NCBI GenBank assembly: GCA_029560585.1
Contig: JAKQKQ010000201.1
Span: forward strand, 1 to 64,000
Source: Verrucomicrobiota bacterium
Lineage (GTDB): Bacteria; Verrucomicrobiota; Verrucomicrobiia; JADLBR01
Length of the DNA: 64,000 nt
Direction of reading: 5' to 3'
Of the stretch, positions 39,970 to 60,360 are shown in pieces. A program made the position numbers and the translations under genes. How positions within the stretch are numbered: position 1 is the stretch's first letter; each line of letters starts with the position of its first letter. The notes below the pieces were generated by a model. It ran no database searches. It had not been told where the DNA came from and saw only the letters and a list, made by a program, of their open reading frames with translations.

Positions 39970-40080
39970 CCCCCCGGCGGCGCCCCTGAGTCCGGCCATC
40001 TCCCGCCGTTGGGCATCTCACCGTCCCGCCCAAAGATAATGTTCGCGGTGCGCCCCGCAGTGGCCCGATACTGGGTCGCC

Positions 40081-41481: not shown

Positions 41482-41567
41482 CCTGAAAACTCCCGTGGCC
41501 GTGAGGCAGGCAATCCTGCCTGCCGCCGCGTGCCTTGGACGCCGTCGCGGGCAGGATTGCCCGCGTT
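41482..41567. repeat. Modular palindromic repeat, copy E
   Basis: GAAAACTCCCGTGGCCGTGAGGCAGG is shared, with few changes, with 19250-19276. It is followed by GGCAATCCTGCCTGC (41509-41523) and its near-perfect inverted partner GCGGGCAGGATTGCC (41547-41561). This again gives two back-to-back hairpins. It fills most of the gap between the sulfatase and the GntR regulator. Confidence 0.6.
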
Positions 41568-41608
41568 ACGCTCCAGTGGATTTGCACCCCCCGGCGGTGC
41601 CTCCCCCC

Positions 41609-41637
41609 TTGACATCCCCTTTTGCCCATGTCATCAT
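41609..41637 (+). promoter_or_regulatory. Candidate promoter of the GntR regulator and HzsA-like array
   Basis: A consensus -35 TTGACA (41609-41614) is followed after 17 bases by CATCAT (41632-41637), matching four of six -10 positions. Transcription would start at about 41644, almost at the ATG at 41646, implying a leaderless or near-leaderless mRNA. The TGATCATATGA stretch next to it (41639-41649) contains the palindrome TGATCA and could be an autoregulatory operator. Confidence 0.4.
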
Positions 41638-41645
41638 CTGATCAT

Positions 41646-42347
41646 ATGAGTGCTGTCGCTACCCATGCGCTGCGCCTTGAACGCCGCGAAACCCTCGTCG
41701 AAGCCACCGCCCGCGCCCTCATCCGGTACATCTCGAAACAAGGTCTGGTCGGTGGTGATCGCCTGCCATCGGAACCCGAACTGATCGACATGGTTGGCGT
41801 GAGTCGCCTGCCGCTGCGCGAGGCACTCTCGATCCTGAAAGGCATCGGGATCGTGGAGGCGCACCACGGCAAGGGCGTCTTCGTCAAAAACCTGGATATC
41901 GCCTCGGTCTTCAGCCTGCTCTCCCCGCTCCTGAAGGCACAGGTCAACATAGGTGTGCCGCAGATCATCGAGGCGCGTCTTCATCTGGAACCTGTCATCG
42001 CCTCGCTCGCAGCCGAGCACCGGAGCCATGCTCATTTGGCTGAACTGAAGGAGCAGATCGCACAGATGAAGGCCCACTTGGAGGATCGCGCGACATTCAT
42101 CGATGCCGACGTCGCTTTCCACCAGTGCCTCGCACGCGCGGCGGGCAATCCGATCTTCCACGTCTTCATGGCCGCCCTGACCGACCTGTTGCGCGAGGTG
42201 CAGTATCGCTACCCCGACCAGCTCCAGCACCGCGAGGCCTCCCTGAGATTCCACGAGCGCATCAACGCCGCCGTCCAAAGTCGCGATGCCAGTGCGGCAT
42301 CTTCCGCGATGCGCGAACACATCCAGTACATTGCCGAACGGCTGTGA
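41646..42347 (+). CDS. GntR/FadR-family transcriptional regulator
   Basis: A 233-residue regulator. The N-terminal winged helix has GDRLPSEPELIDMVGVSRLPLREALSILKGIGIVEAHHGKGVFV, read here as the block from about residue 36 to 82. A C-terminal FCD ligand-binding domain follows (EARLHLEPVIASLAAEH near 105, DADVAFHQCLARAAGNP near 150, RFHERINAAVQSRDASAA near 205), with the Asp/His pattern used to bind a metal and an organic acid. Starts at TTG 41622 or ATG 41628 are also open. The stop codon overlaps the GTG start of the next gene (GTGA at 42344-42347), so the regulator is translationally coupled to the HzsA-like array it probably controls. The ligand may be a sugar acid. Confidence 0.9.
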   Translation: MSAVATHALRLERRETLVEATARALIRYISKQGLVGGDRLPSEPELIDMVGVSRLPLREALSILKGIGIVEAHHGKGVFVKNLDIASVFSLLSPLLKAQVNIGVPQIIEARLHLEPVIASLAAEHRSHAHLAELKEQIAQMKAHLEDRATFIDADVAFHQCLARAAGNPIFHVFMAALTDLLREVQYRYPDQLQHREASLRFHERINAAVQSRDASAASSAMREHIQYIAERL

Positions 42348-45300
42348 GAACCATCTCGATCGCCATCGTCTTCGCAGCTCTCCTCGGCGAGGTTTCGACC
42401 GCCGCCTCTCCCACGTCGTTCGTCTTCACGCTGGTGCCCGATGCGCGCGCCAACGCGGCCATCCAAACCGAACTTGAGTACGACACCCGCGAGTGGCACG
42501 GCTCCACTTTCTGGACCGGACCCGATTGGACCCGCGTTGGAAAAGACTGGCACCACCCGGGCCAGAACACAGCCAGCGTTCGCCGCTTCACCTGCCCGCG
42601 CGATGGACACATCACGATCGCGGGACGCGTTTTCAAACGACACCTCGCCGGCGACGGAATCGTTGCCAGGGTCTTCCACAACAACCGTGAAATCTGGCGC
42701 GTCCAGATCGCCGGCGACGACGCCACCGGCAAGTCTCACAAGCTCCCCATAAACGCCCAACGGGGCGACACGGTCCGCTTCGTTGTCGAGAAAAACGGCA
42801 GCATCGGTTGCGACACAACCGGCTGGGACCCCACCATCGCGTACGACGACGGGACCGCTTTCACCGCCTCGGCCGCCTTCGCCGCGCACACGCAGGGCGC
42901 TTCGGGTTGGCATTACGAAATGGCTCCAGACGGTCAACCCCTGAAACCAACGCCATCGGCCAGCATTCGCTATTTCGGCCCAGACCTGAGCCTAACAGAA
43001 AAATCTCTTCCCGCTCGCCTCACCCAGCAGGACGCCCTCCCGTTCGCCATCATCTCAGCCACCCCCAACGACCCGGCCCACGTCGTCGCCTTTGACTCAT
43101 CCGCTCCATGGGCCCTCTCCGCAGCCCCAATGCCCGACGGCACCGTCCGCCTCGCGGGGGTATCCGAGAGCTCCGCGCCAGTCTGGCACGCCAAATTCCG
43201 AGGCGACTGGGCCAACGGCCTCATCGCCATGGAAGCCGCCATTCGTTCCGGCGATGCACCGGCCACGCTCCGCAAATGGTTCGACATGACCCTCGCGCGC
43301 ACCGAAACCACGCTGCCCCTCTGGGCCATGGTCCAGGAAGAATGGATCCGCCAGGACCAGATCGATGGCTCGGTCTCCCGTTATCTCGCGGCCACGACCA
43401 ACCAGACCGCCCGCGCAATGGCGGCGCTCGCCTCACTGGGAGATGCCCCAGGCGCGCCCCCCCGGCAGACCGCGATCGGGGAACTCTCCCGATTAAGCGC
43501 TCGATGCTCAGGGTCGCTCGCGGGCGCCGCCGCCCGCTCCCTCTGGCTGGATGCCCGCATTTTGAAGCGCCGCATCCTGCTCGCCCACCCGCTCCTTGAT
43601 TTCGGCGAGTTGCTCGTCTGCAAGCGCGCCATGCCCTCATGGAGCCACCTTGTCGCCCAATACTTTGGATGGCGGCAGCGCCCCGGCGGCGGCCTCTTCG
43701 TCGTCACCAGCCCCGGCCACTCCCTCGAAACCCGGGACATACTTCGCTCCCAGCTGCCCCCCGGCAGCGTGCTCGAGCCCCGCCTCGCGCCGGATGGTCG
43801 CCGCATCCTGTTCGCCCACGTTGCCTGTGGCACTGACGCCCCCGAACCCGACCAGCTGCCCGTCAACGAGCGCGGCGATGGCGACCGCTATTTCCACCTC
43901 TACGAGATCAACATCGACGGCTCCGGTCTGCGCCAGATCACCGACGATTCTTATGACGACATGATGGCCGAGTACCTCCCGGGCGGCGATATCGTCTTCT
44001 GCTCCACTCGGCGCAAAGGCTATTCACGCTGCTTCGGGCCCGAATACTCCAACCGCTGGCACACTTACACCCTCCACCGCATGCGACCCGATGGCTCACA
44101 CATCCGCACCCTGTCCTTCAACGACGTCTCCGAATGGTTCCCATGCATCGCCCCATCAGGAGAGGTGCTTTTTGCCCGCTGGGACTACATCGACCGCGAT
44201 GCCGTCACCCATCAGAACCTCTGGGCTATGCGCCCCGACGGCACCAACCCCACGGCCCTGTGGGGCAATGCCACCCCAAAGCCCCACTGCACCTTCCAAG
44301 CCCGCCCTGTCCCCGGTAGCCGAAAACTTGTCTTCATCGCGTCCGCTCACCACTCCATCACCGGCGGACCCGTCTGCCTCCTCGATCCCACCATAGATCC
44401 CAACAGCCTCGACGCCGTCACCCGCCTCACGCCCGAGCCTTTCCCCGAGGCAGAGGGCAAACCGAAGGAGTGGTATCAGTCGCCATGGCCACTCTCGGAA
44501 TCCCTCTTCCTCGTCGCCCACAGCCCGTTCCCGCTCCGCTTCCAGGGCGAGCACATCCGCGAACCCAACCCCGATAATGCTCTTGGCATCTGCCTCCTCG
44601 ATTCCTCCGGAAACCGCGAATTGCTCTACCGTGACCCAGACATATCCACCACCACCCCAATCCCGCTGCGCCCCAGCGGCCAACCCGCCAAGGCCATCGC
44701 CACCACCTGCCCATCCACCGAGACCGGTGTCGGTCGCATGCTGGTCGCCGATATTTACCAAGGACTCGGGGATGTCCCGCGCGGTACGATCAAGGAACTG
44801 CGCATCGTCCAGCTCTTTCCAAAATCCACATGGCTCGCCAATAATCCCCGCATGGGTGTGGCCGGCGAAGAGAACGGTCGCGCAATCATTGGGACCGTGC
44901 CCGTCGAGGCCGATGGCTCCGCGTACTTCGAGGTGCCGGCCGGCAGGCAGATCCTCTTTCAGGCGCTCGACTCCTGCGGCATGGCATACCAGACCATGCG
45001 ATCATCCACCTATGTCCAGCCCGGCGAGACGACCGCTTGCATCGGTTGCCACGAGCACCGCATGCTGGCGCCTCCCCCCGCCTGCGGACGACCTCTGGCC
45101 ACCACCCGCCCGCCATCGCGAATCGACCCGGGAAAGCTGGGGGGCCGCCCCTTCGGCTTCGTCGAGATGGTGCAGCCCATCTTGGATGCCAAATGCGTGA
45201 GCTGCCACGGCGGCGAAAAGACAGACGGGGGCATCGATCTCTCCAGAAAGCCCGAGGCCGGCTTTAACCGCGCCTACATCGCCCTCTGCGGAACACCCGA

Positions 45301-45601
45301 TTCATGGAAGGAACGCGGCTTCGTCCCCGCCTTTGCCGAGAAACTTCTCGTCCCCCGCTTCGTGCAGCGCAACCAGATACAGATGACTCCGCCCGGCGGC
45401 GCGTACGGCGCCCGCGGCAGCCGACTCATGCGGCTCCTTCTCAATGGCGACGGCCACGAGGGCGTCAGACTCTCCGACGACGACATCCGCCGCCTCGCCG
45501 CATGGATCGACCTCAACGCCATCTTCTACGGCTCATACGACCCAGAACACCAAGCCGCCCAGCTCGTCGGCAAACTCGTCCCCATGCCCGCCACCCAGTG
45601 A
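42344..45601 (+). CDS. HzsA-like secreted diheme propeller protein 1
   Basis: 1085 residues from a GTG overlapping the regulator stop. It has a signal peptide (residues 1-21, ISIAIVFAALLGEVSTA) and an N-terminal beta-sandwich module (about 25-200; FTCPRDGHITIAGRVFKRH, DGIVARVFHNNREIW) that looks carbohydrate-binding. A helical linker and a TolB/HzsA-like beta-propeller follow (about 430-870; HLYEINIDGSGLRQITDDS, YLPGGDIVFCSTRR, YTLHRMRPDGSHIRTLS). Two heme c sites are seen: C899-I-G-C902-H903 and C951-V-S-C954-H955. The C-terminus ends GHEGVRLSDDDIRRLAAWIDL. This architecture matches the HzsA family, the alpha subunit of hydrazine synthase, but the HzsB/C partners are absent. Periplasmic or surface-located; the reaction is unknown. 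Confidence 0.85.
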   Translation: MRTISIAIVFAALLGEVSTAASPTSFVFTLVPDARANAAIQTELEYDTREWHGSTFWTGPDWTRVGKDWHHPGQNTASVRRFTCPRDGHITIAGRVFKRHLAGDGIVARVFHNNREIWRVQIAGDDATGKSHKLPINAQRGDTVRFVVEKNGSIGCDTTGWDPTIAYDDGTAFTASAAFAAHTQGASGWHYEMAPDGQPLKPTPSASIRYFGPDLSLTEKSLPARLTQQDALPFAIISATPNDPAHVVAFDSSAPWALSAAPMPDGTVRLAGVSESSAPVWHAKFRGDWANGLIAMEAAIRSGDAPATLRKWFDMTLARTETTLPLWAMVQEEWIRQDQIDGSVSRYLAATTNQTARAMAALASLGDAPGAPPRQTAIGELSRLSARCSGSLAGAAARSLWLDARILKRRILLAHPLLDFGELLVCKRAMPSWSHLVAQYFGWRQRPGGGLFVVTSPGHSLETRDILRSQLPPGSVLEPRLAPDGRRILFAHVACGTDAPEPDQLPVNERGDGDRYFHLYEINIDGSGLRQITDDSYDDMMAEYLPGGDIVFCSTRRKGYSRCFGPEYSNRWHTYTLHRMRPDGSHIRTLSFNDVSEWFPCIAPSGEVLFARWDYIDRDAVTHQNLWAMRPDGTNPTALWGNATPKPHCTFQARPVPGSRKLVFIASAHHSITGGPVCLLDPTIDPNSLDAVTRLTPEPFPEAEGKPKEWYQSPWPLSESLFLVAHSPFPLRFQGEHIREPNPDNALGICLLDSSGNRELLYRDPDISTTTPIPLRPSGQPAKAIATTCPSTETGVGRMLVADIYQGLGDVPRGTIKELRIVQLFPKSTWLANNPRMGVAGEENGRAIIGTVPVEADGSAYFEVPAGRQILFQALDSCGMAYQTMRSSTYVQPGETTACIGCHEHRMLAPPPACGRPLATTRPPSRIDPGKLGGRPFGFVEMVQPILDAKCVSCHGGEKTDGGIDLSRKPEAGFNRAYIALCGTPDSWKERGFVPAFAEKLLVPRFVQRNQIQMTPPGGAYGARGSRLMRLLLNGDGHEGVRLSDDDIRRLAAWIDLNAIFYGSYDPEHQAAQLVGKLVPMPATQ

Positions 45602-45605
45602 TCTC

Positions 45606-48600
45606 ATGAGCCCGATGGCAGATCAAAACGTGAAAACGACCGCCGCTGGGCCGTCGCCTCGCCGGAATCCGTCCGCGACCGCGACCCGGCCCGGCGCGGG
45701 CATCCTCACCCGCCGTCTCCTCCTGCTCGCCATCGCACTGACCGCAGCGCCCCTGGTCCATGCGAGTGAGATGGACGCGTTCACCATCCGGGCAACCGAC
45801 TTCGACGAAGGCAACGTCCGGATCAGCCTCGCGGGCGAGGCGTATGCCGACGGGCACCCCTGCATCTGGCACGGCAGCGGCTCGCCAGATCAGGCGGGGT
45901 ATGTGATCGAGTTTCCCGTCACCGGTGACTACACCCTGTCTGCCTTGTATGCGGCAGCTAAGTCGCGACCCGTCGAGATCAGTATCGACGGAAGACCAGT
46001 TCATACCGGGCTCACGGACGTGACCGGCAGCTGGCAGACGAAGTCGGCAAAGTGGGAAAAGCAATGCACGTTGCGCATCGAACGTGGCACGCACACGATC
46101 ACCCTTCAACGCGAAGGCCCACTGCCGCACATCTGCGCTTTGCGGATTGAACCGCCCGCCCCACTCCCCGCGGGAACGACTCTCGGGCGCCTCAGTCCAG
46201 AGGAACGCGCCGAGCGGGCGCGCATCGCCGAGCATCGGGCGGAGATCCAAGCGAAAGTTGCGGCGCTCAAAAGCATCAACATCCAAGCCGTACGCCTAGC
46301 CATCGAAGACATGGAACGGAGTTTTCCGGGACGGTACGACGGGGTGAAACATCGGCGAGCGTTGGCCGAGTTTGCGCGCATCCACGAATCGCTCGCAGAG
46401 GCGCTCGATAAGGGCGAACTGCCTGAAACCGCACCACCGGTCGAAGAATTGCTCGCCGGGATACGGACCGCCCTGCTGGAAAATCCCCTGCTCGATTTCG
46501 ACAGATTGTTGGTGATGCGACGTCGCCCGAGGGACAGCAACGGCTTTGTCCCCGCCAACTACCTGTCGCACGCCAGCATAACAGGCCGAACCGGATGGGA
46601 TAATGAGATCGCGGTGCTCGCTGATCTGCGCGGAAAGGCCACGCTGCAGACTCTCCATCGGCCGAAGGAGACGCGCATCCTGCGCGACGTGCGCCTAGAT
46701 TTCGATGCGAATAGGGTCTTGTTCTCCAGCATTGACGATAGGGGCCGATGGGCCGTCTACGAAATCCCATCCACCGGCGGCGAACCTCACCAGATCACGC
46801 ATTCAACGTTCCCGGATGTGGATTTCTTCGACGCCTGTTATCTGCCCGACGGACGGATCATCGTGGCCTCGACAGCGAATTATCACGGCGTCCCCTGTCT
46901 CGGCGGGCAGCAGCCGGTGGCGACACTCTATCTTTTGGAGCCCGCGGCAGGAAAACTCCGGCAGCTCACATTCGACCAGGATCACAGTAATGATCCTGCC
47001 GTTCTCAACGACGGGCGCGTGCTCTACCAGCGCTGGGAGTACAGTGACATCCCTCACTACTTCGCGCGCCGACGAATGACGATGAACCCAGACGGCACCG
47101 GGCAACTTGCGTTGCACGGCAGCGGCTCGTGGTTCCCAACGGCGTTCCGCTTTGCCCGACCGGTTCCGGATCATCCGACGATGCTGGTCGGGATCATCAG
47201 CGGACACCATGATTACGGCGACTGTGGCCGCCTCGCTTTGCTCGACCCGGGACTGGCCGGCGGCTATCCGTTCCGTTACCGGCCAGCGTCGAAAGAGTGG
47301 GGCGTCGAAGGCCAGCACGTCGCCCTCACCCCGGATATCCTGCCCGCAGAAAAGACCGGGTTCTTGCAGCTGGCGCCGGGCCGCGGCAAACCGGTGGCCG
47401 GCACCGTCTGCGACAACATCGTCAGGGGCGTCTATCTCAAGGAGCGGCCGGAGTTGATGACGCACCCGCATCCGCTGAGCGGCAAATACTTCCTCGTCGC
47501 GATGAAGCCGACGCCCCGGAGCCTCTGGGGCATCTATCTGGTGGACGCTTTCGACAACATGACGCTGGTCGTCGAGGAAGAGGGAGCGGCGCTATTCGAG
47601 CCGGTCCCGTTGCAGCCAAGAAAACGCCCCCACGTGATCCCCGACAGGGTCGACCTTGGCAAGAGGACCGCCACGGTGCATATCGGCAATATCTATGCCG
47701 GTCCCGGGCTGAAGGGCATACCGGATGGCACGGTCAAGTCGCTGCGCGTTTTCTCCTACCATTTCGGGTACCTGGGCAAGGCGAGCTTCGAGATAATTGG
47801 CACGCAGGCCGGCTGGGATGTGAAACGCGTCCTCGGCACCGCCAGGGTGGAATCGGACGGCTCGTCTTTGTTCGTCGTCCCGGCGAACACCCCCATTTCG
47901 ATCCAACCGCTCGACGGCGAAGGCCGCGCGGTACAACTGATGCGGAGCTGGCTTGTCGGCATGCCGGGCGAACGGGTCTCCTGCACCGGTTGCCATGAGA
48001 ACCGCGCCGAGACGTTGTCGGTCAGACGCACCTTGGCCGACCAGCGCTTGCCGGAACCATTGGCGCCGTGGTTCGGGCCGCCGCGACCGTTTGACTTCGC
48101 CAACGAGGTGTATCCGGTCCTTCAAAAGCACTGCGGTGGCTGCCACGAAGACAGACCAGCGGTTGGCCCTCGCGCCAAACCGTCGTTCAGCCAACCTGAC
48201 GTTGCCTACGACACGCTGCACCCGTACGTCCACCGCCCGGGGCCAGAAGCCGACATGGCACCTCTCAACCCCATGGAGTATCACGCCTCCAGCAGCCGAC
48301 TGATCCAGATGCTTGAGAAGGGACACCACGGTGTCCGGCTCGATAACCTCCCTCGCGAGTCCCGCGAACGCCTCTACTGCTGGATCGACCTCAACGTGCC
48401 CCGGCGCGGTTCGTATGAGCTGCCCGCCGACAAACAGCACATCGCCCAGCGCCGACGCGAATTGAACAAGGTGCTGGCGGAGATCGAGCCCGACCCCGAG
48501 CAAGAGGCGCGGCAGTTGGCCGAAGCCAGGAAAAATGCACCGCCGGTTGTTTTCGAACCGCCCGCGAGACCCGCCGACGAACCACCCGACGTGCTCCAGG

Positions 48601-49499
48601 TGGATGGCTTTCCCCTCGACGCGGCGGCCGCTGCCGAACGCCTGCGCGGGGCGCCAGGCGGCGGCATCAAGACGATGGAGTTTGGCCGGGGAGTGCGGCT
48701 GGTGCTGCGCTGGATCCCCTCTGGCGAATTTGTCATGGGCAGCCGCGACGGGGCGCGGGACGAACGTCCTCGCGCAACGGTCAAGGTCGCACAGCCGTTC
48801 TGGATGGCGGAAGCCGAGATCAGCAATGCCCAGTACGCGCTCTTCGATCCCGAGCACGACACGCGCTACATCGACATGCACCACATGGATCGGGTGACCC
48901 CCGGCTACATCGCCAATCATCCCGACCAGCCGGTCGCGCGTGTCTCCTGGCAGCAGGCGATGGCTTTCTGCGAATGGCTCGGCCTCAAGATCGGCCTGCG
49001 GGTGACCCTGCCCACCGAAGCCCAATGGGAATGGGCCGCGCGCGGTGGCACCGACACGCAATTCTTCTACGGCACCATGGACACGGATTTCGGACGTTTT
49101 GCGAATCTGGCCGATCAGTCGTTGCGCTGGTTCAAGATGGGCTATCCAGGCCCCGGGAACCTGCAGCCGCGCCTCCCCTATCCATCGGACAACAACTTCC
49201 CGTTGCGTGACGAACGCTTCCGCGACAAGTACCATGTGGTGGACTACGTCGGCCAGACCGAACCGAATCCGTGGGGCTTGAACGATATGATTGGCAACGT
49301 CAGCGAATGGACCCGCTCCAGCTATCGCCCGTATCCGTATGCCGATGACACGCGCAACGATGAGAACCCTGGCGAGCGCAAAGTCGCCCGTGGCGGTTCC
49401 TGGGCCAACCGGCCCGCTGATGCGGGCTCATCGGTGCGTCGCGCCTACGAATCGTGGCAGAAAGTGTACGATGTCGGCTTCCGGGTGATCGTTGAATAG
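45606..49499 (+). CDS. HzsA-like diheme propeller protein 2 fused to a cysteine-less FGE/SUMF1 domain
   Basis: 1297 residues with an internal signal anchor after a long basic leader (LTRRLLLLAIALTAAPLVHA). A CBM6/35-like N-terminal module lies at about 60-185 (GDYTLSALYAAAKSRPVEIS, LRIERGTHTITLQREG), then a propeller (about 290-770, with VYEIPSTGGEPHQITHSTFP). Heme c sites are C793-T-G-C796-H797 and C843-G-G-C846-H847, with HHGVRLDNLPRESRERL near 905. Residues about 1025-1297 form a formylglycine-generating-enzyme-like domain (WIPSGEFVMGSRDG, LPTEAQWEWAARGG, MIGNVSEWTRSS). The terminal RGGSWANRPADAGSSVRRAY lacks both catalytic cysteines. It begins 4 bases after gene 1. Proline codons are mostly CCG here but CCC in its neighbours. 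Confidence 0.86.
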   Translation: MSPMADQNVKTTAAGPSPRRNPSATATRPGAGILTRRLLLLAIALTAAPLVHASEMDAFTIRATDFDEGNVRISLAGEAYADGHPCIWHGSGSPDQAGYVIEFPVTGDYTLSALYAAAKSRPVEISIDGRPVHTGLTDVTGSWQTKSAKWEKQCTLRIERGTHTITLQREGPLPHICALRIEPPAPLPAGTTLGRLSPEERAERARIAEHRAEIQAKVAALKSINIQAVRLAIEDMERSFPGRYDGVKHRRALAEFARIHESLAEALDKGELPETAPPVEELLAGIRTALLENPLLDFDRLLVMRRRPRDSNGFVPANYLSHASITGRTGWDNEIAVLADLRGKATLQTLHRPKETRILRDVRLDFDANRVLFSSIDDRGRWAVYEIPSTGGEPHQITHSTFPDVDFFDACYLPDGRIIVASTANYHGVPCLGGQQPVATLYLLEPAAGKLRQLTFDQDHSNDPAVLNDGRVLYQRWEYSDIPHYFARRRMTMNPDGTGQLALHGSGSWFPTAFRFARPVPDHPTMLVGIISGHHDYGDCGRLALLDPGLAGGYPFRYRPASKEWGVEGQHVALTPDILPAEKTGFLQLAPGRGKPVAGTVCDNIVRGVYLKERPELMTHPHPLSGKYFLVAMKPTPRSLWGIYLVDAFDNMTLVVEEEGAALFEPVPLQPRKRPHVIPDRVDLGKRTATVHIGNIYAGPGLKGIPDGTVKSLRVFSYHFGYLGKASFEIIGTQAGWDVKRVLGTARVESDGSSLFVVPANTPISIQPLDGEGRAVQLMRSWLVGMPGERVSCTGCHENRAETLSVRRTLADQRLPEPLAPWFGPPRPFDFANEVYPVLQKHCGGCHEDRPAVGPRAKPSFSQPDVAYDTLHPYVHRPGPEADMAPLNPMEYHASSSRLIQMLEKGHHGVRLDNLPRESRERLYCWIDLNVPRRGSYELPADKQHIAQRRRELNKVLAEIEPDPEQEARQLAEARKNAPPVVFEPPARPADEPPDVLQVDGFPLDAAAAAERLRGAPGGGIKTMEFGRGVRLVLRWIPSGEFVMGSRDGARDERPRATVKVAQPFWMAEAEISNAQYALFDPEHDTRYIDMHHMDRVTPGYIANHPDQPVARVSWQQAMAFCEWLGLKIGLRVTLPTEAQWEWAARGGTDTQFFYGTMDTDFGRFANLADQSLRWFKMGYPGPGNLQPRLPYPSDNNFPLRDERFRDKYHVVDYVGQTEPNPWGLNDMIGNVSEWTRSSYRPYPYADDTRNDENPGERKVARGGSWANRPADAGSSVRRAYESWQKVYDVGFRVIVE

Positions 49500-49511
49500 G
49501 ATTCTTGCGCC

Positions 49512-52500
49512 GTGAAAACGATTCGAACGAATGGGAAACGGTTGGCACACGCAGGTCTATGCTGTCTCGTTCTCGCGTCCTTGGCCCCGGGCGTCGGCGG
49601 CATGGCCGTGCCCCCCGCCCCTGCCGATGCCGATCAATCGCTCCTCGCCCACTGGACCTTCAACGAACCCATGGGCGAAACCTGCCGCGACGTGACCGGC
49701 CACGGATGCGACGCGGCGTTGCAGGGCACGCCATCGGGCGCAGAGCGAACGACCGGCATCTCCGATGGTGCACTGGCCTTCAAGGGAAACCATCGCCTGC
49801 TATGCGGTCAGAAACCCGCGTTCGGTCCGCTGCCCCAGATCTCCCTCTCGGCATGGGTCCAGCCAAACGCCTTCGACCGCTACAATGAGATCTTCCGCAA
49901 GGAGGATGGCAACAACCGCGTCCTCTTCTCCTTCCAAGAGGATGGCAAGGTCCTCGCCCTGGGCCTCAATATCGGCGGCTACGTCGAGTGCGATGCCAAG
50001 CTAGATCCAAAGCAGGTCCTCGATGGCGCGTGGCACCACTGCGCTGCCACGTTCGACGGCCAAGTCATGCGCGTCTACCTCGACGGAGTCCAGATTGGCG
50101 TCCTCCAACGGCCCGGCACGATCACCGCCGGCGGTCCCGCGCCAGCCGCCATCGGTTCCGCCAACGGACACGAGTGCTTCCAGGGCGCGATGGATGACCT
50201 CCGCATATACGCCACCGCACTCACCCACACCGAAGTTGCCACCCTCCACGCAATCGGCGTCGAGGCTATCGCCCGATCGAACGCCACCGCCACGAAAACT
50301 CTCGAGGCGCTCCTCTCTCCCCGCAACTCGTTCGCCGAAACACTGGCGGCATCGCGCCGCAACCTCATCGAAAAACAGCTGTCCCTCGACGCCGCCGTCG
50401 CCCGCGCCTTCCTCGCCCGACTGCAGGCCCAGTTCCCCGAAGACTGCCGCCAGTTCCGCCTCTGGACGGGCGCTGATCCCATCGCCTACCTCCGCGCCAA
50501 AGGCAACGATTTCCACCTCGCCATCACCGGGCGCCTCATCGGCATGCTCGTCGAATACCGTCCCTTGACCCAGGCCCAGTGGTCCAGACAGACCGAACAG
50601 GACCGGACCCGTTGGCGCGATGCCGACGTGCTCGAAGAGCGATTGGCCGCGCTAAAGGCACGCGGCGATGAGATCCAGTTCTCGCCCGAATGGATCGCGC
50701 TGATGCAGGAAATCGCATCCCGTATCCAGTGGCGACCCTACGAGTACGAACCCGTCGCACCGTTCATCCCACCCTCAACTCCCGAAACGCGAGATCTCAC
50801 AGCCGACGAAGGCCGCGATGCGCTGGAACGCGACTGGCTCCATCAGGCCAACAACAGGCCCACTCGCGAGCACGTCGCCAACGAGATCGGCTGGGCCAAA
50901 GAGCTGGCCGCGCGCCTCCACAATGTCGATCTCTCGGCGGAACTCGCCTCGTTGTCGAGAATCGAGGAAAGGGCGCAGGCCGCCAGCGCGGACATCGCCT
51001 CCCTCTATCTGCAGACCCGCACCGTCAAACGCAGCATCATGCTCAAGAATCCTGCGGTGAATTTCCGGCGCGTCGTGTTTGTCGATATGCCCCTCCCCAA
51101 TGGCAAGGAATGGAAACACGAGACCCGACACCGCCTCGGCTACATGGCCGTGCCCGGAGCACGACTCCTCGTCCTCGATGGCCTCCGCCCCGACGGCAAG
51201 ATCGCCCGCCTCATGCCCCGGCCGCCCCTCCACGGCTCTTTCTGGCGGCCCGATGTCTCCTTCGACGGGCGCAAGATCCTCTTCTGCTTCAAACCCCATA
51301 ACGAAAAATCATTCCACCTCTACGAGATCGGCGCCGACGGCACCGGACTGCGGCAACTCACCGATGGGCCATTCGACGACCTCGACCCCATCTATCTCCC
51401 CGACGGCCACATCCTGTTCTCCACAACCCGCGGCCACACCTATGTCCGCTGCATGCCACCCACCAGCTCCTTCGTCCTCGCCCGCTGCAACGCCGACGGC
51501 CGAAATATCTACCTCGTCTCCGCAAACAACGAGCCGGATTACCTGCCGTCGGTCATGGATGATGGCCGCGTCGTTTACACGCGGTGGGAATACACCGACA
51601 AGCCGCTCTGGCGCGCCCAGAAACTCTGGACGATCAACCCGGACGGCACGCAGGTGCAGATGCTCTGGGGCAACCAGAGCGTGTGGCCCGATGTCATGAA
51701 GGATGCCCGCTTGATCCCAGGAACCCGCCGCGTGATGTTCACCGGCTGCGGTCACCACGACTGGTTTGCCGGCTCGGTCGGAATCGTGGATCCCGATCGC
51801 GGGCGAGACTTTCCCGAAGGCCTGACCAAGGTCACCGGGGAAATCCCGTGGCCAGAATGCGGCAACGGACCCACGGACCCGATCGAGTCGCCCCGCTACC
51901 ACCCCCACGGCAAGTTCACCGCATATTACTCCCCCTATCCCCTGAACGAACATGACTTCCTCGTCTCTGCCACCCGAGGGGACAAGTTTGCCCTCTATCT
52001 CATGGACGTCGACGGCAACCGCGAACTGATCTACGAGGGAACCCATAACGTATTCCACGCCATCCCCGTGCGCCCACGGCCGCAGCCCCCGATCATCGTC
52101 GATCGCGTCGCGTGGCCGAAGGTCGAAACAGGCTCCCGCGCCAAGGACGGAGTCATTTTCAGCAACAATGTGTACGATGGCGCCCCCAGGGAACTGCGCG
52201 GTAAGGCGAAGTACCTGCGCGTCCTGCACATCGATCCGAAAACATACACCTATTGGTACAAACGGCCCTACATCTCCACCGGTCCGGTCGTCTCCGGCGT
52301 GCAGTCCGAGGGCGTCAAGCGCATCCTCGGCACGGTGCCTATAGAACAAGATGGCTCCGTCTCATTCCACGTGCCGCCCGGCAAGGCGCTGCACTTCCAG
52401 CTTCTCGATGAGAACTTCCGAGCGCTCCAGACGATGCGCAGTTTCGTGGGCGTCATGCCGGGCGAATATCGCGGCTGCCTGGGCTGCCACGAGTCACACA

Positions 52501-53153
52501 GCCGCGCGCCGACCGTCGCCGCCCCCGCCCGCGCGCTGGTGCAATCACCGCGCAACATTACGCCCCCGCCCTGGCCCGACGCCACGGTCAGCTATCCCCG
52601 ATACGTTCGACCCGTTCTGGACAGATACTGCGCCAAGTGCCACGCGGGCGACGGCGAGGGCCGAAAAACGCTCGACTTGACCGCCAGGCCCGGCTTCCTC
52701 GATTTCGACGAGGTCTACTGGCTCCTGATCGGCAAGCCCACGTGGGGCAAAGCCTACGAGCTGCCCAAGGACTGCCCACCCGGTTTCGGCATCGCCGACA
52801 CCTTCCTCGTCGAGGGCTATGACAAGGTCGATCCCGTCGCCTACCGCACGCCTCCCCCCATGACCCGTCTCTCATACCGCAGCCGATTGATCGATATCGC
52901 CTCCAGCGGCAAACACCACGACGTGCGCGTGGACGAAATCAGCCTGCAGCGGCTCATCTGCTGGGTGGACACGATGTGCCCCTACCGCGGCGACGAAGAA
53001 GTCCGCCAGGAACCCGATCCAATCTTTCAGGGCGTCGATTGGCTCGCCGTCCGCCCGCGCATCCAAACGGCCCCCATCGTCGATCGCTTTCACATCTCGT
53101 CCTACGGGGATTACAATTTCACATCGGCGAGCTCCGTCAAAGAGTCCCCATGA
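49512..53153 (+). CDS. HzsA-like diheme propeller protein 3 with LamG lectin domain
   Basis: 1213 residues from a GTG start, with signal peptide KRLAHAGLCCLVLASLAPG. A LamG/concanavalin-like lectin domain occupies about 42-245 (LLAHWTFNEPMGETCRDVTG, LDGAWHHCAATFDGQVMRVY, AMDDLRIYATALT). A helical region (about 250-510) and the beta-propeller (about 515-960) follow, with HLYEIGADGTGLRQLTDGPF and ILFSTTRGHTYVRCMPPTSS. Two heme c sites, C989-L-G-C992-H993 and C1040-A-K-C1043-H1044, are 51 residues apart. The C-terminal HHDVRVDEISLQRLICWVD block is the counterpart of the conserved end in genes 1, 2 and 4. It starts 12 bases after gene 2. Lectin binding suggests a glycan substrate or scaffold. Confidence 0.86.
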   Translation: MKTIRTNGKRLAHAGLCCLVLASLAPGVGGMAVPPAPADADQSLLAHWTFNEPMGETCRDVTGHGCDAALQGTPSGAERTTGISDGALAFKGNHRLLCGQKPAFGPLPQISLSAWVQPNAFDRYNEIFRKEDGNNRVLFSFQEDGKVLALGLNIGGYVECDAKLDPKQVLDGAWHHCAATFDGQVMRVYLDGVQIGVLQRPGTITAGGPAPAAIGSANGHECFQGAMDDLRIYATALTHTEVATLHAIGVEAIARSNATATKTLEALLSPRNSFAETLAASRRNLIEKQLSLDAAVARAFLARLQAQFPEDCRQFRLWTGADPIAYLRAKGNDFHLAITGRLIGMLVEYRPLTQAQWSRQTEQDRTRWRDADVLEERLAALKARGDEIQFSPEWIALMQEIASRIQWRPYEYEPVAPFIPPSTPETRDLTADEGRDALERDWLHQANNRPTREHVANEIGWAKELAARLHNVDLSAELASLSRIEERAQAASADIASLYLQTRTVKRSIMLKNPAVNFRRVVFVDMPLPNGKEWKHETRHRLGYMAVPGARLLVLDGLRPDGKIARLMPRPPLHGSFWRPDVSFDGRKILFCFKPHNEKSFHLYEIGADGTGLRQLTDGPFDDLDPIYLPDGHILFSTTRGHTYVRCMPPTSSFVLARCNADGRNIYLVSANNEPDYLPSVMDDGRVVYTRWEYTDKPLWRAQKLWTINPDGTQVQMLWGNQSVWPDVMKDARLIPGTRRVMFTGCGHHDWFAGSVGIVDPDRGRDFPEGLTKVTGEIPWPECGNGPTDPIESPRYHPHGKFTAYYSPYPLNEHDFLVSATRGDKFALYLMDVDGNRELIYEGTHNVFHAIPVRPRPQPPIIVDRVAWPKVETGSRAKDGVIFSNNVYDGAPRELRGKAKYLRVLHIDPKTYTYWYKRPYISTGPVVSGVQSEGVKRILGTVPIEQDGSVSFHVPPGKALHFQLLDENFRALQTMRSFVGVMPGEYRGCLGCHESHSRAPTVAAPARALVQSPRNITPPPWPDATVSYPRYVRPVLDRYCAKCHAGDGEGRKTLDLTARPGFLDFDEVYWLLIGKPTWGKAYELPKDCPPGFGIADTFLVEGYDKVDPVAYRTPPPMTRLSYRSRLIDIASSGKHHDVRVDEISLQRLICWVDTMCPYRGDEEVRQEPDPIFQGVDWLAVRPRIQTAPIVDRFHISSYGDYNFTSASSVKESP

Positions 53154-53172
53154 ACAAGCGCCATATCGCCCT

Positions 53173-56055
53173 ATGAAATCGGACATCCGGACAGACGCGT
53201 TCTGGCCGCCACGACGAAGCACGAGTGACACGAAGAGACGGCCCTCTTCGTGCGTCTTGTGCGCATTCGTGGCCATCCTCGCCGCCATTCCCGCCTCCGC
53301 CTCCGAGCCCTTCACCAGCACCTTCGAGGCCCAGCCTGCGCGCTTCATCCGCGTCATCATCCGCGCCACCAGCCAAGGCCAGCCGTGCATCGATGAACTC
53401 GAACTCTTCGGTCCCGACGGGAAAACAAACCTCGCGCGCGCGTCGCGTGGCGCCAGGGCCACCGCCTCCTCCAGCCTGCCCGGCCACGCCATCCACCGCA
53501 TCGAGCACCTCAACGATGGCCTGTACGGCAACAGCCACAGCTGGATCGCGGCGACCACGGGCGAGGAATGGGCGCAGATCGAGCTGCCCGAACCCGCCCC
53601 CGTCGCAAAGATCGCCATCTCCCGCGACCGTGAGGACCAGTATGCCGACCGCGTGCCAACCGCGCTAGACGTCCGGCTCTCCATGGACGGCGCGCACTGG
53701 CAGACGGTCGCGCAAATGATGAACCATGCGCCCGCCCGCACCGCGAAACGCCAAGCCCCACCCTATAAGCCCCCCGCCGACATGCCCGAACCGATCACGT
53801 GGGACGGGCTCCTTCGCTACGCCTTCCTCTGCGAGAAGGCCACGTGGGAACGACTGGACCGCGAGGACCATCTCTCGCCCCTTAACGTCGAACGCCCCGC
53901 CTATCCCGGCGGCCCACCCTATTGGGGCCGCGTCGCCAAGCTTTCCCAAGCCCAACGCACGCTGACGCTCCTGGAGGAAATGATCGATCGCCTCGGCAAG
54001 AAAGGCGTCGATGTGCTCGCCGAGCGCCAACAGCTCGCCACCCTGCGCGCGCGTCAGACCGCCGATGGCGACGCCGTGTACTTGGAGGCACGCCTCGCCA
54101 AGCGCCAGCTTATCTTCCGCGACCCCGACCTCGCATCACTGCAGCGCGTCCTCTTCGTCAAACGCCACCCATACCTTTCGTCCCACAACTACAGCGATGT
54201 GCTCGACTCGCAGTTCCGCCCCGGAGGCGGCATCTACCTGCTGGAGATTCCCCGCAGCCACGGTCGCCTCATTCCCGAGGCCGCCAGACTGACAATCCTC
54301 TTCGACGCCACCGATGGCATCGCCCGGGATCCCATGGCGGACTTCGACGGCAAGAAGGTCTACTTCGCCTTCCGCCCCGATAAAGGCCCGGCCGACGACG
54401 CGGCAGCCTACTGGCACCTGTGGTCGGCGAACGCCGACGGGTCAGGCGCCCGGCAGTTGACCGACGGTCCCTTCCACGATTACTACCCGTGCCCATTGCC
54501 AGACGGTGGACTTGCGTTCATCTCCACCCGCTGCCGCGCGCGCTTCCTCTGCTGGCGGCCGCAGGCATTTGTCCTGTTCCGCATGGATGCCGATGGTGGC
54601 GATATCAGGCCCCTGTCTTACGCCAACCTCAGCGAATGGTCGCCGACGGTGATGCGCGATGGGCGCATCCTCTGGACACGCTCGGAATACATCGACAAGG
54701 GCGCGGACTTCGGCCACACGCTCTGGGCCATCCGACCCGACGGCACCCACCCCGAGCTGATCTTCGGCAACAATACGCCAAACTGCTACATCAACGGCCG
54801 CCAGGTGCCCGGCACCCACGAGATCCTCTCCACGATCTTCTCACACGGCGGCGACCACAACGGCCCGCTGGGTTTGATCGACCTTGCCAAGGCGAAGGGC
54901 CCCTCCGATGTCGATGCCATCACCAACATCACCCCCGACACCAGACCCCATTACAACATGAACTGGCCGCGGCACGAATGCTGGCGAGACCCCGTGCCGA
55001 TGACCCGCGACTACTTCCTCGCCAGCCACGCCCCGGCCGACCGGTTCGGACTGTATCTCCTCGATCGCTTCGGCAACCGCGAACTGCTCTTCCTCGATCC
55101 CGCGATCGGCAGCATGTGCCCCTCGCCACTGCGGCCAGAACCAGCCCCCCCCAGGCTCGAGCATTCGGCGCCCCCGCTCGCGCAGGCGCAGGTCGGCGTG
55201 CTAACGGTGGCCGATGTCTACCAGGGCCTGGGGCCCGCCGTGCCCCGAGGCCAGGTGAAGTTTATCCGAGTGTGCCAAGAGGTCCGCGCCGATCTGCTCC
55301 GATTGCCCGACGGCTCGTATCAGAACGACCACAGTCCATTCCAGGATTGGTACGCCACGCCAATCCATAAAGTCAACGGCCCGAACGGTTGGCCAACCTA
55401 CGTCGCAAAGGCCTCGCTCGGCCTGGCCCCGGTCGAGACCGATGGATCCGCCTGCTTCTACGCGCCCGCAGGCAAGATCCTCTACTTTCAGGCCCTGGAC
55501 AAAAACCTCAACGAACTTCAGCGGATGCGCAGCGTCGTCCAACTCCAGCCCGGCGAACAGCGCGGCTGCATCGGTTGCCACGAGGACCGACAAACCGCCG
55601 CCCCGGTGCGCCAGACAATGGCGTCGCGACGCCCGCCCAGCACGCTGGATCCACCCCCGTGGGGCGCCGTTCCATTCGCCTACGAGCGCGTCGTGCAACC
55701 CGTCTGGGATGCGAAATGCGTGCGTTGCCATGATGCCTCGCACGAGCGGGGCATCAACCTGACCGGCGCGCCAGATGCCGATCACGTTCCGACATCCTAT
55801 CGCACGCTGATCGCCGGTGGGTGGGTCCACTACTTTGACATGACCTACCGTCTCCGCCACACGATGGCCCCGCCGATGTCGTTCGGCACCTTGCAGAGCA
55901 AGTTACTTCGGGTCATCGATGCCGGTCACCACGACGTGAAACTCACCCGCGACGAGACCCACGCCGTCAAATGCTGGATCGACCTCAACTGTCCCCTCTG
56001 GCCCAACTACGAATACCGGCCCGAGCGCACCCCGCTCGCATCGGCCGCCCCATGA
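53173..56055 (+). CDS. HzsA-like diheme propeller protein 4 with F5/8 type C (discoidin) domain
   Basis: 960 residues with signal segment CVLCAFVAILAAIPASAS after a long basic leader. A discoidin-type F5/8C module lies at about 44-190 (FIRVIIRATSQGQPCIDELE, HLNDGLYGNSHSWIAATTGE, ALDVRLSMDGAHWQTVAQ). The propeller (about 320-780) contains YWHLWSANADGSGARQLTDG and LSEWSPTVMRDGRILWTRSE. Heme c sites are C799-I-G-C802-H803 and C849-V-R-C852-H853, and the C-terminus has AGHHDVKLTRDETHAVKCWI. It is the last gene of the array, 19 bases after gene 3, and it converges on the CotH/LTD gene with only 6 bases between stop codons. Confidence 0.86.
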   Translation: MKSDIRTDAFWPPRRSTSDTKRRPSSCVLCAFVAILAAIPASASEPFTSTFEAQPARFIRVIIRATSQGQPCIDELELFGPDGKTNLARASRGARATASSSLPGHAIHRIEHLNDGLYGNSHSWIAATTGEEWAQIELPEPAPVAKIAISRDREDQYADRVPTALDVRLSMDGAHWQTVAQMMNHAPARTAKRQAPPYKPPADMPEPITWDGLLRYAFLCEKATWERLDREDHLSPLNVERPAYPGGPPYWGRVAKLSQAQRTLTLLEEMIDRLGKKGVDVLAERQQLATLRARQTADGDAVYLEARLAKRQLIFRDPDLASLQRVLFVKRHPYLSSHNYSDVLDSQFRPGGGIYLLEIPRSHGRLIPEAARLTILFDATDGIARDPMADFDGKKVYFAFRPDKGPADDAAAYWHLWSANADGSGARQLTDGPFHDYYPCPLPDGGLAFISTRCRARFLCWRPQAFVLFRMDADGGDIRPLSYANLSEWSPTVMRDGRILWTRSEYIDKGADFGHTLWAIRPDGTHPELIFGNNTPNCYINGRQVPGTHEILSTIFSHGGDHNGPLGLIDLAKAKGPSDVDAITNITPDTRPHYNMNWPRHECWRDPVPMTRDYFLASHAPADRFGLYLLDRFGNRELLFLDPAIGSMCPSPLRPEPAPPRLEHSAPPLAQAQVGVLTVADVYQGLGPAVPRGQVKFIRVCQEVRADLLRLPDGSYQNDHSPFQDWYATPIHKVNGPNGWPTYVAKASLGLAPVETDGSACFYAPAGKILYFQALDKNLNELQRMRSVVQLQPGEQRGCIGCHEDRQTAAPVRQTMASRRPPSTLDPPPWGAVPFAYERVVQPVWDAKCVRCHDASHERGINLTGAPDADHVPTSYRTLIAGGWVHYFDMTYRLRHTMAPPMSFGTLQSKLLRVIDAGHHDVKLTRDETHAVKCWIDLNCPLWPNYEYRPERTPLASAAP

Positions 56056-56061
56056 CGCCGC

Positions 56062-59000
56062 CTACTCCTCGAATGTCATGCGCAATCGGAAGAAGTGACG
56101 CGGGGCCGTGGCGGGGGAAGCCTCGCGCAAAATGACGGCCTCTCGATCGCCTGGCATCGGGGAACTCCCGTGCACGACCGACCCGCTCACGCACCATGAC
56201 AACGGTCCGAGATCACCGCTCTCACAAAGCTCATATGCCACATCGAGGGCGTTGGCGGGGCGATAGAAGCGAAGCCCCGCATATCGCGCGCCGCCCTGAT
56301 CGGCCCAAGTGAATGCCACCGGGTCCACATCCTTTACCCACGGGTCGCATCCCAGCGCATACTCCGCCCAGTTCACGCGCCCATCCCCGTCCGGATCGGC
56401 ATACGGCCCCGATACCAGCGGATCCTCCCGCTCAAGCTCGCTGAAGTGGAAATTGTCCCAACCCCGATAGGCCTGCGCCCAATAAGAGTCCCCCGTGCCC
56501 GGACTGCCCGACGCCGCCCCGCTGATCGCCCACTTGACGGCGTTGCCGAAGGCGTCGTAGGCGGTCGATGTCTCACGCAGCACCAGCGATCGGCCAGAAC
56601 CGTCGGATGCCGGATACCACCCATCCTTGTACTCAAAATCCAGTATGTTCTCGCCAGAGACATCGGTCAGCTCCAGCCGCTCTCCGCCGTTGTCCAGTTG
56701 GCCCTCGTACGGGCCAAACACGGGCACGCCCGCCGAGGGATAGCGCAGCGCAAATGCGGCCGGGTTCTTCGCGACGATCAGCCGCTGCCCCGCGCCGAGC
56801 GTTGCCGCCGGAAAGGTGAACACGATGCCCTGTGAAAAATACGCGCCCGTGAGCGTCAGGATGGTCGCCCCCGTATTCATCAGCTCCAGATACTCGAAAT
56901 CATCATCCCTCACGCCCACGATCGCCTGCGCTTCCGCCGCCGTTGGATCCGCGGGATGGTACTGGATCTCCGTGATGCGCAGCCACCGTTGCGTTGGCAG
57001 CGGCGCGCCATCGTACGAATAACTGGCGATCAGGGTGCCCCGGTCATCGCGAAGGTTCAGCGTCCCGCCGCGCGCCGACAACTGCCCCTGATAGTTGCCC
57101 TGCACAAGACGCCGCTGCCCGCCCGTGGGACCGGAAGTCCGGGATCGAAAAGCGTGCGCATCCTTCACCAGGTGCAGCAGCCCCTGATAGAAGACGTTCG
57201 TCGGCGGCGGGATCACCGTGCCTCCCTTGAAGACATGCCGGACCTCCCCATCCACGGTCCAATCCGACATGTCCACCGCCTGCGTCGTCATGTTGCGCAA
57301 GATCACATACTCCTCCGCCTGCGTGCCGCCCGCGGGCAGGAAATCCAGCGAGTCGAACGTCACCATGCCGGGGTAATTGACCTGCGGCGTGTTGGGCAGC
57401 GGCGTCCCCCTGATCGTCGGCCGCCCGGCCCCTGTGTTGAAAAGATAGGACCGGCGCGGACCGACATAGTCGCTGATGACGCGCTCGACCTCCTCGCGCG
57501 GCCGGTTCGGAACGAAGTTCGTGTGGAATCCCCACCGCGCGGCGTCCAGATCGCCATCCGTCCACGGCGAGGGATTCGCCGGATCGGGGTCCACCGACGC
57601 GGCGATCGCCCGCATTTGCGTCTCGAAAATCCCGTTGGTCGTGCCCGGCGGCTGCATCAGCGCATCCATCAGCGTCCGCATGCGCCGCACGTACATCTGC
57701 CGCATCTCGAGAGACTCGTACACGACCGAATACAATCTGTTGTAGCCGCGCTCCAGCGTGTTGTTGGTGACCAGGGTGTCATTGAAATAACCCCCGTTTG
57801 TCCCACCGTAATTATGCCCGTGGGAGAGATCCACGTCCCAGATGATGGGCTGCCATTCGCGGCTGCCATCGCTGTCGCGATAGAGATAGTAGTTCTTGTG
57901 GCCGTGGTCGCCGTCGCTGTTCAGCGAGCGAACGGCGAAATAGTTGATCGCCGCAGGTATGTCGATGTTGTCATAGGCGTAGGTCTGCCGCACGGACAAC
58001 GTAATGTTGGTATCGAGGGCGTCATAGAGCGACTGGAGGTCGGTGTTGTCCTCTTCCTCGCGAGACTTCTTCTCGACGTTCACCACGAAGTTTGTCGAGT
58101 AGATCTTGTAGAGCGCCCCGGCCGGATCGAGCCCGTTGCGCTCGAGCATGCCCTCGTCACCATTCTCCACCATGTCCAACACGCCATGAAATACGCCGTT
58201 CAGATGCACCCGCACCGGAAAGGCGTAATGATACGGCGTTCCCCCCACCAGCCCCACCCAGTGGGACAACGTGTTCCGCACCTTCGTCTTGTCGGCATAG
58301 TTTGACAGCAGGTTCAGGTCCTTCACCCGCTTCTCACCGTCCCGCCAAAGGAACCGGTGGTTCGAATTGAAATCGAAATCGTAGCTCTTCTTGGGAAACC
58401 CGGAGGTGGTCTGGCCGTGGATCTCGTGCCCGATGTTGTCGTAGAACCTGTCCAGATAATAACAGGAACCCCTGAACGCGGCGGCGGTCGGGCCATTTGT
58501 TGGCGACCCTGACACGAACCACAGGAGCACCGGCAACTGGCTCGACGCTGTTGTGCCATCAACCGCGACAGTCCCGAAATACTGCGGCGAATCGTTCGTG
58601 TTGGCGTAGGTCGGCAGTTTCGTGATGACCCCCTGAGTGTCCTGCGCCTCGAAACGCCAGCGGAACATCTGGCCCGGCCCCGGACCGACGGTCGGCAGAG
58701 ATGCCGAAAAGACCCCGTCCCCCGCCACCGCATCCGGCGGAACGCCATCGTCCTGAAGCACCTGCGGGGCGGACTCGGCATTCCACATGGTGCGGGTGTA
58801 TGCCCGGACCACCGCCACCGGATCCTTGGTCTTGATCACACGCACCGTGACGCCCAACGGCGGACTCGATGCGTTTCCGAGTGGGCGCGGGACGTCGGGA
58901 TCGGTCGGCGTCGCTCCGAACAGAAGCGGGCCCGCCGTCGCGATCCCATTTGGCGCCCCTGGAGTCGGCTCGCTGAAATAGCCCGTCAAGGAGGGCGTGT

Positions 59001-60081: not shown

Positions 60082-60360
60082 GGACCTGCTGCGGACCGCA
60101 TGTCTGGCTCGGCCCAATGCCACCATATTCATACGTTTTCATAACGCGCGTTCAAAGTCGAGGAGAAGCATGCCCCGCTGATGGCGAGGATGCTCATAAA
60201 GGGCGAGAACCTCGCATTGCAAGACTCCGCCCAAATCGGAACCTCCTGCGCCACAGCAACCTCTGTCCCATGGGCCGACCCCCGATCTCGGCTTCACCAC
60301 CGGATCCCACGACACCGGGTTGCCGTTGCCTCAAGCCTCCCCCTCCGCTATGGGTGAGGC

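Follow-up and report, generated by a model that had tools for sequence, protein, structure and literature searches.

The window examined here is a stretch of 64,000 nucleotides from a Verrucomicrobiota bacterium (contig JAKQKQ010000201.1, positions 1 to 64,000), and at 42344-56055 it carries an array of four co-directional genes, H1 to H4, whose predicted products belong to a large family of secreted c-type diheme proteins. On the forward strand, these are: H1 (42344-45601), with heme motifs at 45038-45052 and 45194-45208; H2 (about 45606-49499), with heme motifs at 47982-47996 and 48132-48146; H3 (49512-53153), with heme motifs at 52476-52490 and 52629-52643; and H4 (53173-56055), with heme motifs at 55567-55581 and 55717-55731. 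The true start of H2 is either 45606 or as much as ~100 bases further on. Successive genes of the array are separated by 4, 12 and 19 bases, and the start of H1 overlaps the stop of a GntR-family regulator gene by 4 bases. A first-pass annotation of this DNA had described a common chassis, which the searches bear out: each protein combines a TolB/HzsA-type propeller, an HZS_alpha middle domain, two CxxCH motifs, and a C-terminal GHH...WID block that reads (G/K)H(H/E)xVx(L/V)...W(I/V)D across all four. The distance between the two CxxCH motifs is 52, 50, 51 and 50 residues in H1 to H4, respectively, and the MRS...PGE segment that had been reported to precede the CxGCHE core is found in each gene. 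Signal peptides were read by eye. The genome as a whole contains 16 HZS_alpha genes at 13 places.

The four proteins differ in their N-terminal modules, which supports the modularity proposed earlier. LamG on H3 and F5/8C on H4 were both confirmed by Pfam (3e-25 and 1e-7, respectively). The N-terminal domain of H1 has no match in Pfam or the PDB, in agreement with its previous label of "unassigned", and is conserved among H1 orthologs. Assignment of the H2 N-terminus as CBM6/35-like fared less evenly: there is no Pfam match, and the remaining support is a weak profile match (E=0.009) to a module of an exo-glucosaminidase in the PDB, which we take to be a CBM35. Overlooked in the first-pass annotation was a C-terminal domain of H2 with the fold of formylglycine-generating enzyme (FGE/SUMF1; 48711-49490, forward strand; residues 1090-1349; Pfam E=3e-42). 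Its nearest solved relatives are ToxD, PorK/GldK and SUMF1, and the domain also occurs on two more paralogs of this genome. A search of the H2 tail for the two catalytic cysteines near the GGS...R motif found a single cysteine, Cys1176, and none near GGSW; with one cysteine only, the tail is not a canonical formylglycine-generating enzyme. The modules of H1 to H4 may be aimed at glycans.

The relationship to HzsA, the alpha subunit of hydrazine synthase, is one of true homology and extends across the propeller, the middle domain and both hemes. H1 to H4 score 83, 102, 81 and 72 bits against the HZS_alpha profile (Pfam PF18582), for which the cut-off is 26.6. A profile built from 18 paralogs matches crystal HzsA (5c2v_A) from residue 30 to residue 765 of its 782 (E=7e-47). 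For H4, the predicted structure is good from about residue 260 and poor in the N-terminal module; the best Foldseek match of its core is 5c2v_A (E=1e-28), with TolB proteins next at 1e-10. The NCBIfam equivalog for HzsA proper (NF052339) is not reached, at 26-52 bits for H1 to H4 vs a cut-off of 800.

In the aligned chain, an offset of 27 places C303, C685/C688/H689 and H772 of HzsA correctly. Among 152 aligned relatives, the heme I motif is present in 150 and the heme II motif in 147. Heme I of H1 to H4 is a plain CxGCHE site lacking the tyrosine ligand of HzsA: the Tyr591 position is occupied in the relatives by R/N/M/Q/L/S, and the Cys303 position by N/A/T. Neither the HzsA zinc site (Cys303 with His587) nor the Tyr591 heme I ligand is found in the aligned relatives; the roles of Tyr591, Cys303 and His587 as HzsA ligands are described in PMC12607021 and PMC12758564. 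One residue away from the aligned position of HzsA His772, 138 of the 152 relatives have a histidine (H919 in H4), and heme II is probably bis-histidine ligated. Other HZS-alpha homologs have lost Tyr591, Cys303 and also His772 (PMC12758564). The relatives have conserved residues of their own: C460, R503, Y506, D508, H558, D570, M785, E795 and E804 (H4 numbering), of which a mean of 8.1 of nine is kept and HzsA has none; the set was picked after the alignment was viewed, making this figure descriptive and not a test.

Judged from these alignments, H1 to H4 share an ancestor with the hydrazine synthase alpha subunit and are not hydrazine synthase. Cytochrome c assembly genes and four COX1 matches are present, from which this genome can be predicted to assemble c-type cytochromes and respire. 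Elsewhere, one paralog lacks heme II (L031:3732-6218); this is probably the HEAT-repeat protein without a lectin module, and it is kept in the sister genome (L136).

The gene directly upstream of H1 (41646-42347, forward strand) encodes a GntR-FCD regulator of the FadR subfamily (FCD, 4e-26; GntR, 2e-14). Its earlier description as a sugar-acid-type regulator is supported by its best NCBIfam match, NanR, at 138 bits and below the cut-off, and by the recurrence of its link to H1 in other phyla: the GntR-H1 pair is kept in Lentisphaerae, Planctomycetota and the sister genome. A promoter/operator region at 41605-41650 on the same strand consists of TTGACA-17-CATCAT (10/12 consensus match) followed by TCATCATCTGATCATATGA at the GntR start. 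As this promoter-like site and conserved block stand ahead of GntR and have near-identical counterparts ahead of GntR in the sister genome, the transcription unit is most likely GntR-H1-H2-H3-H4. Slightly further upstream, an inverted repeat (GGCAATCCTGCCTGCC ... GGGCAGGATTGCCC) lies at 41500-41570, between a sulfatase gene and the GntR promoter, and is perhaps a dispersed repeat or a terminator.

Regulators of this kind are associated with the family beyond this locus. Genome-wide, there are four GntR-FCD matches and five HTH_IclR matches (two of them weak), and one of each is directly upstream of HZS-like genes (binomial p ~2e-4 for an estimated 6100 genes, in tests drawn from search results). 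Operonic neighbours include IclR at 10/118 and GntR-FCD at 3/118. Among distant genes of the same loci, IclR reaches at most 1/118, and the families matched there by at least 2/118 include neither IclR nor FCD. When a conserved neighbour other than a regulator was sought in the named relatives, none was found except for one gene.

This gene follows H4 in several other genomes (L042/L165, L044 and L121), the H4 subfamily being one that adjoins it, and encodes a YVTN propeller joined to a CCP/MauG-type diheme domain. By profile it matches both HzsB (E=3e-51) and HzsC (E=2.5e-36), and a model of the copy in this genome has 5c2v_B as its best fold match (TM 0.85 on the target), so it is a fused homolog of the beta and gamma subunits of hydrazine synthase. 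Exactly one such gene is present in this genome (G000:C94:635-2428). Its NCBIfam score of 130 does not reach the cut-off of 1250. With gamma residue numbering derived from the aligned chain, the thioether residue Cys165, His144 and Asp168 are not kept in the beta-gamma homologs, and glycine is invariant at the Cys165 position.

Across a sample of 38 genomes of the class, the beta-gamma gene accompanies a strong alpha-like match in 23 of 25 cases and is found in 0 of 13 genomes whose alpha-like match is weak or missing (Fisher p=2e-8); several of the sampled genomes are close relatives, and this p-value overstates their independence. The two genomes lacking it are metagenome-assembled genomes (MAGs) of 85% and 75% completeness. 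Copy numbers are strongly unequal, with 1 to at least 32 alpha-like genes per genome vs 1-2 beta-gamma genes, and a ratio of 16:1 here. Physical linkage takes several forms on a single strand: alpha-alpha-IclR-H2-H4-betagamma in L044; H4-betagamma-alpha-alpha in L121; and an FGE-type alpha followed by beta-gamma in L148, L154, L166 and L167. In compact complete genomes (family f5, genus g6; L148:4900-11461, L166 and L167), an FGE-type alpha gene directly followed by beta-gamma constitutes a minimal version. A 374-residue gene stands after beta-gamma in two of the three looked at (L148 and L167), and is chorismatase/Rid-like in L148. Two further loci (L150:5740-11773 and L151:6868-13601) contain a one-heme or divergent alpha-like gene, an FG-GAP/ASPIC gene and then a beta-gamma-like gene. 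Arrangements of this type have been described for clades I and II (PMC12758564), and they are apparently distinct from the lectin-tagged kind.

The evolutionary depth of the array was assessed from a tree of 142 cores. The scan for relatives found more than 490, of which 80 were kept, from the Planctomycetes-Verrucomicrobia-Chlamydiae (PVC) phyla, Hydrogenedentota, Armatimonadota and others; it was seeded with four closer sequences, the 18-paralog alignment having no sufficiently conserved stretch. In the tree, each of the four genes belongs to a strongly supported clade of its own. The tree was built by a fast method and has some long branches, of which the four clades are independent. Close relatives of H1 and H2 come from Rhodopirellula (73% core identity) and a Kiritimatiellae MAG (84%), respectively; those of H3 come from an unclassified MAG (78%) and a Lentisphaerae MAG; and H4 has relatives in Verrucomicrobia and, more distantly, in Planctomycetota and Hydrogenedentota. 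By this phylogeny, H1 to H4 are ancient, separate subfamilies with orthologs across phyla.

Whether the four genes stay adjacent in related genomes has a mixed answer: the exact order H1-H2-H3-H4 is seen only here, and partial sets occur in the sister genome and in other families. In the sister genome (G001, the only other genome of the genus compared), one contig carries GntR (78%), H1, three genes and then H3 at the contig end, and another contig carries H3-HX-H4. Together, the H3 fragments on these contigs (864 and 319 residues) amount to one H3, so the locus is probably continuous across both. The three genes inside this array encode a D-2-hydroxyacid dehydrogenase, an FAH-family hydrolase (didehydro-deoxy-rhamnonate-hydrolase-like) and an aldehyde dehydrogenase. 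Other families have H1-HX-H3, H1-HX-HX and H2-H4 sets, often after an IclR gene. The exact quartet is local, and tandem sets of H subfamilies are a general habit; because several unrelated families have such sets of two to four genes, the array is not due to chance. In a Lentisphaerae MAG (L094:672-14071), two glycyl radical enzymes of an unassigned PFL-like subfamily lie between GntR-H1 and H4, and the substrate of these enzymes could reveal the pathway. In another genome, a 1283-residue pyrroloquinoline quinone (PQQ)-type propeller protein sits inside an array of H1 and HX (L124:10455-14306).

Taken together, these data suggest, tentatively and with less than even confidence, a family of periplasmic, sugar-induced and sugar-linked oxidoreductases in which many differently targeted alpha-like subunits have one common beta-gamma-like partner. 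The proposed scheme would involve: oxidation of sugars, oligosaccharides or sugar-derived acids in the periplasm by the alpha-like proteins; onward transfer of electrons by heme II; the single protein with the YVTN propeller and CCP/MauG-type diheme domain as common partner; direction of the proteins to different targets by the variable terminal modules (LamG, F5/8C, NPCBM, the FGE-fold domain and the N-terminal domain of H1); and switching of the operon by the GntR-FCD regulator in response to a small acid, for example a pathway product. The same redox reaction is probably common to all members, since the core residues are family-specific and occur in all subfamilies, and the targets are likely to differ because the terminal modules vary. 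The link to sugar or sugar-acid metabolism comes from the regulators and from the sugar-acid-type genes inside the sister array.

Several observations weigh against this proposal. LamG and F5/8C domains bind proteins as well as glycans. The neighbours other than regulators are diverse, the beta-gamma gene of this genome is on another contig (C94), and the service of many alphas by one beta-gamma is deduced from copy numbers and linkage. In addition, the analogous PSCyt proteins are predicted to be periplasmic or cytoplasmic, not extracellular (He et al., PMC5615132).

A bolder version of the sugar oxidoreductase proposal is doubtful, if still worth stating. One beta-gamma-like diheme core (or maturase) would be common to an exchangeable set of alpha-like proteins, 16 here and at least 32 elsewhere, each with its own targeting module and regulator, together forming a combinatorial sugar redox system. 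Anammox hydrazine synthase would have arisen from the ancestors of this system by losing the family active-site residues and gaining Tyr591. If the alpha-like core does have its own conserved active site, its activity would show which chemistry hydrazine synthesis arose from, and would also account for many otherwise unassigned heme proteins that sugar-degrading bacteria secrete. The family is large and spans the PVC phyla, Hydrogenedentota and Armatimonadota, and some compact complete genomes have a small version with a single alpha and a single beta-gamma.

A non-catalytic role is unlikely, though the likeliest of the alternatives. H1 to H4 would then serve at the surface as cytochromes that attach cells to glycans or hand electrons to outside acceptors. 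The combination of lectin-type modules with two hemes would suit such a role, and multiheme cytochrome systems do occur in Verrucomicrobia (PMC5615132). However, two hemes are few for this purpose, the nine conserved residues common to the subfamilies look like an active site, and the genes are linked to sugar-acid-type regulators rather than to porin-cytochrome genes.

The role of the beta-gamma protein could also be read differently. As a diheme enzyme resembling MauG or MbnH, it might oxidatively modify a conserved residue of every alpha-like protein, producing a protein-derived cofactor. One modifier for many substrates explains the ratio of one beta-gamma to at least 16 alphas equally well as a common partner does, and Cys460, Tyr506, Trp518 and Met785 are conserved in the alpha-like core and not in HzsA. 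The beta-gamma protein has weak matches to MauG and MbnH models; these are, however, far below cut-off, and in hydrazine synthase itself the homologous proteins form a stable complex. For its fit to the copy numbers, a maturase role is a serious rival, even if distinctly improbable on balance.

Defence against peroxide or reactive oxygen, with heme I and the CCP/MauG-like partner acting as peroxidases that the modules hold near the surface or a polymer layer, has little probability. The partner does match CCP_MauG, but the regulators are of the sugar or organic-acid kind and not the stress kind, and the multiplicity of alpha-like genes is left unexplained. Still more improbable is a nitrogen-cycle enzyme with hydrazine, hydroxylamine or nitric oxide chemistry as in anammox. 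All three subunits, alpha, beta and gamma, have homologs here, yet alpha Tyr591 and Cys303 are missing, gamma Cys165 is replaced by glycine with His144 and Asp168 also not kept, and the NCBIfam scores of both alpha and beta-gamma are far under their cut-offs; PMC12758564 concludes likewise on other homologs, and a different set of substrates has been put forward for HZS-like enzymes in PMC10732223. Recent tandem duplication without special meaning, suggested by adjacency and the common core, is rejected as having next to no probability, because each of the four clades also includes sequences of other families or phyla, with core identities of 73-84%, and tandem sets recur elsewhere.

The array had also been described as lying next to a sulfatase, with a suggested link between the two. 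The gene is present (40039-41481, forward strand; PF00884, Pfam 2e-50) and adjoins the operon, but is probably outside it, as 165 bases and the promoter-like site separate its end from the GntR start. The link itself is not borne out. This genome has about 105 sulfatase genes, and one is found within 5 kb at 3 of its 13 HZS-like places, vs ~2.4 expected. Sulfatases are rarer near than far (fewer than 2/118 among operonic neighbours vs 5/118 among distant genes), and at the sister locus a thioredoxin-like gene takes the sulfatase's place. On the neighbour counts and the sister locus, a polysaccharide-degradation locus with a sulfatase partnership was rejected, and activation of the adjacent sulfatase by the H2 FGE-fold domain was likewise rejected, as the cysteine pair is missing and the sulfatase link unsupported. 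At the other end of the array, a gene at 56062-60132 converges on the end of H4 and encodes a secreted-type protein of 1356 residues that has lamin-tail as well as CotH kinase domains. Near this locus, at L039:8281-18453 (contig C254, ~72-82 kb), is a cluster that, by eye, is like a membrane-bound NiFe hydrogenase or formate hydrogenlyase.

Among the closest known systems is HzsA (5c2v), sharing the propeller, the middle domain with heme I, the C-terminal cytochrome c domain with heme II and a near full-length profile match. H1 to H4 differ from it in lacking the Tyr591 ligand and the Cys303 zinc ligand, in having glutamate for Tyr588 after CxxCH, and in their own conserved residues, added lectin-type or FGE-fold modules and many paralogs per genome. 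As in the hydrazine synthase complex, a beta-gamma homolog is present in the same genome as the alpha-like genes. In architecture, the proteins also resemble fungal AA12 pyranose dehydrogenase, which links an enzymatic propeller with a cytochrome and a carbohydrate-binding module but uses PQQ and a b-type cytochrome; no homology is claimed.

Earlier papers have already reported non-anammox HZS-like homologs and their link to beta-gamma, and have suggested that the family is wider and acts on other substrates (PMC12758564, PMC10732223). In the papers available to the search, there was no account of tandem arrays with lectin tags, of a link to GntR or IclR, of many alphas per beta-gamma or of the residue set specific to this family, nor any paper on HZS-like proteins in Akkermansia. 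The homologs of clades I-IV (PMC12758564) and the HZS-like genes of PMC10732223 are similar in being distant alpha homologs with a canonical heme I, near fused beta-gamma homolog genes. The present family differs from the homologs in both reports in its many alphas per beta-gamma, its lectin modules and its tandem arrays after GntR or IclR genes, in keeping a candidate distal histidine of heme II and, for the H4 and H2 types, in having no FG-GAP (CRTAC1) gene that separates alpha from beta-gamma. The planctomycete-type cytochromes PSCyt1-3 belong to another domain family, and the sulfatase link reported for them (PMC5615132) is unsupported here. They are nevertheless alike in comprising many c-type paralogs fused to LamG, F5/8C, CBM6 and other domains in Verrucomicrobia, and a role in carbohydrate metabolism has been proposed for them as well (PMC5615132).

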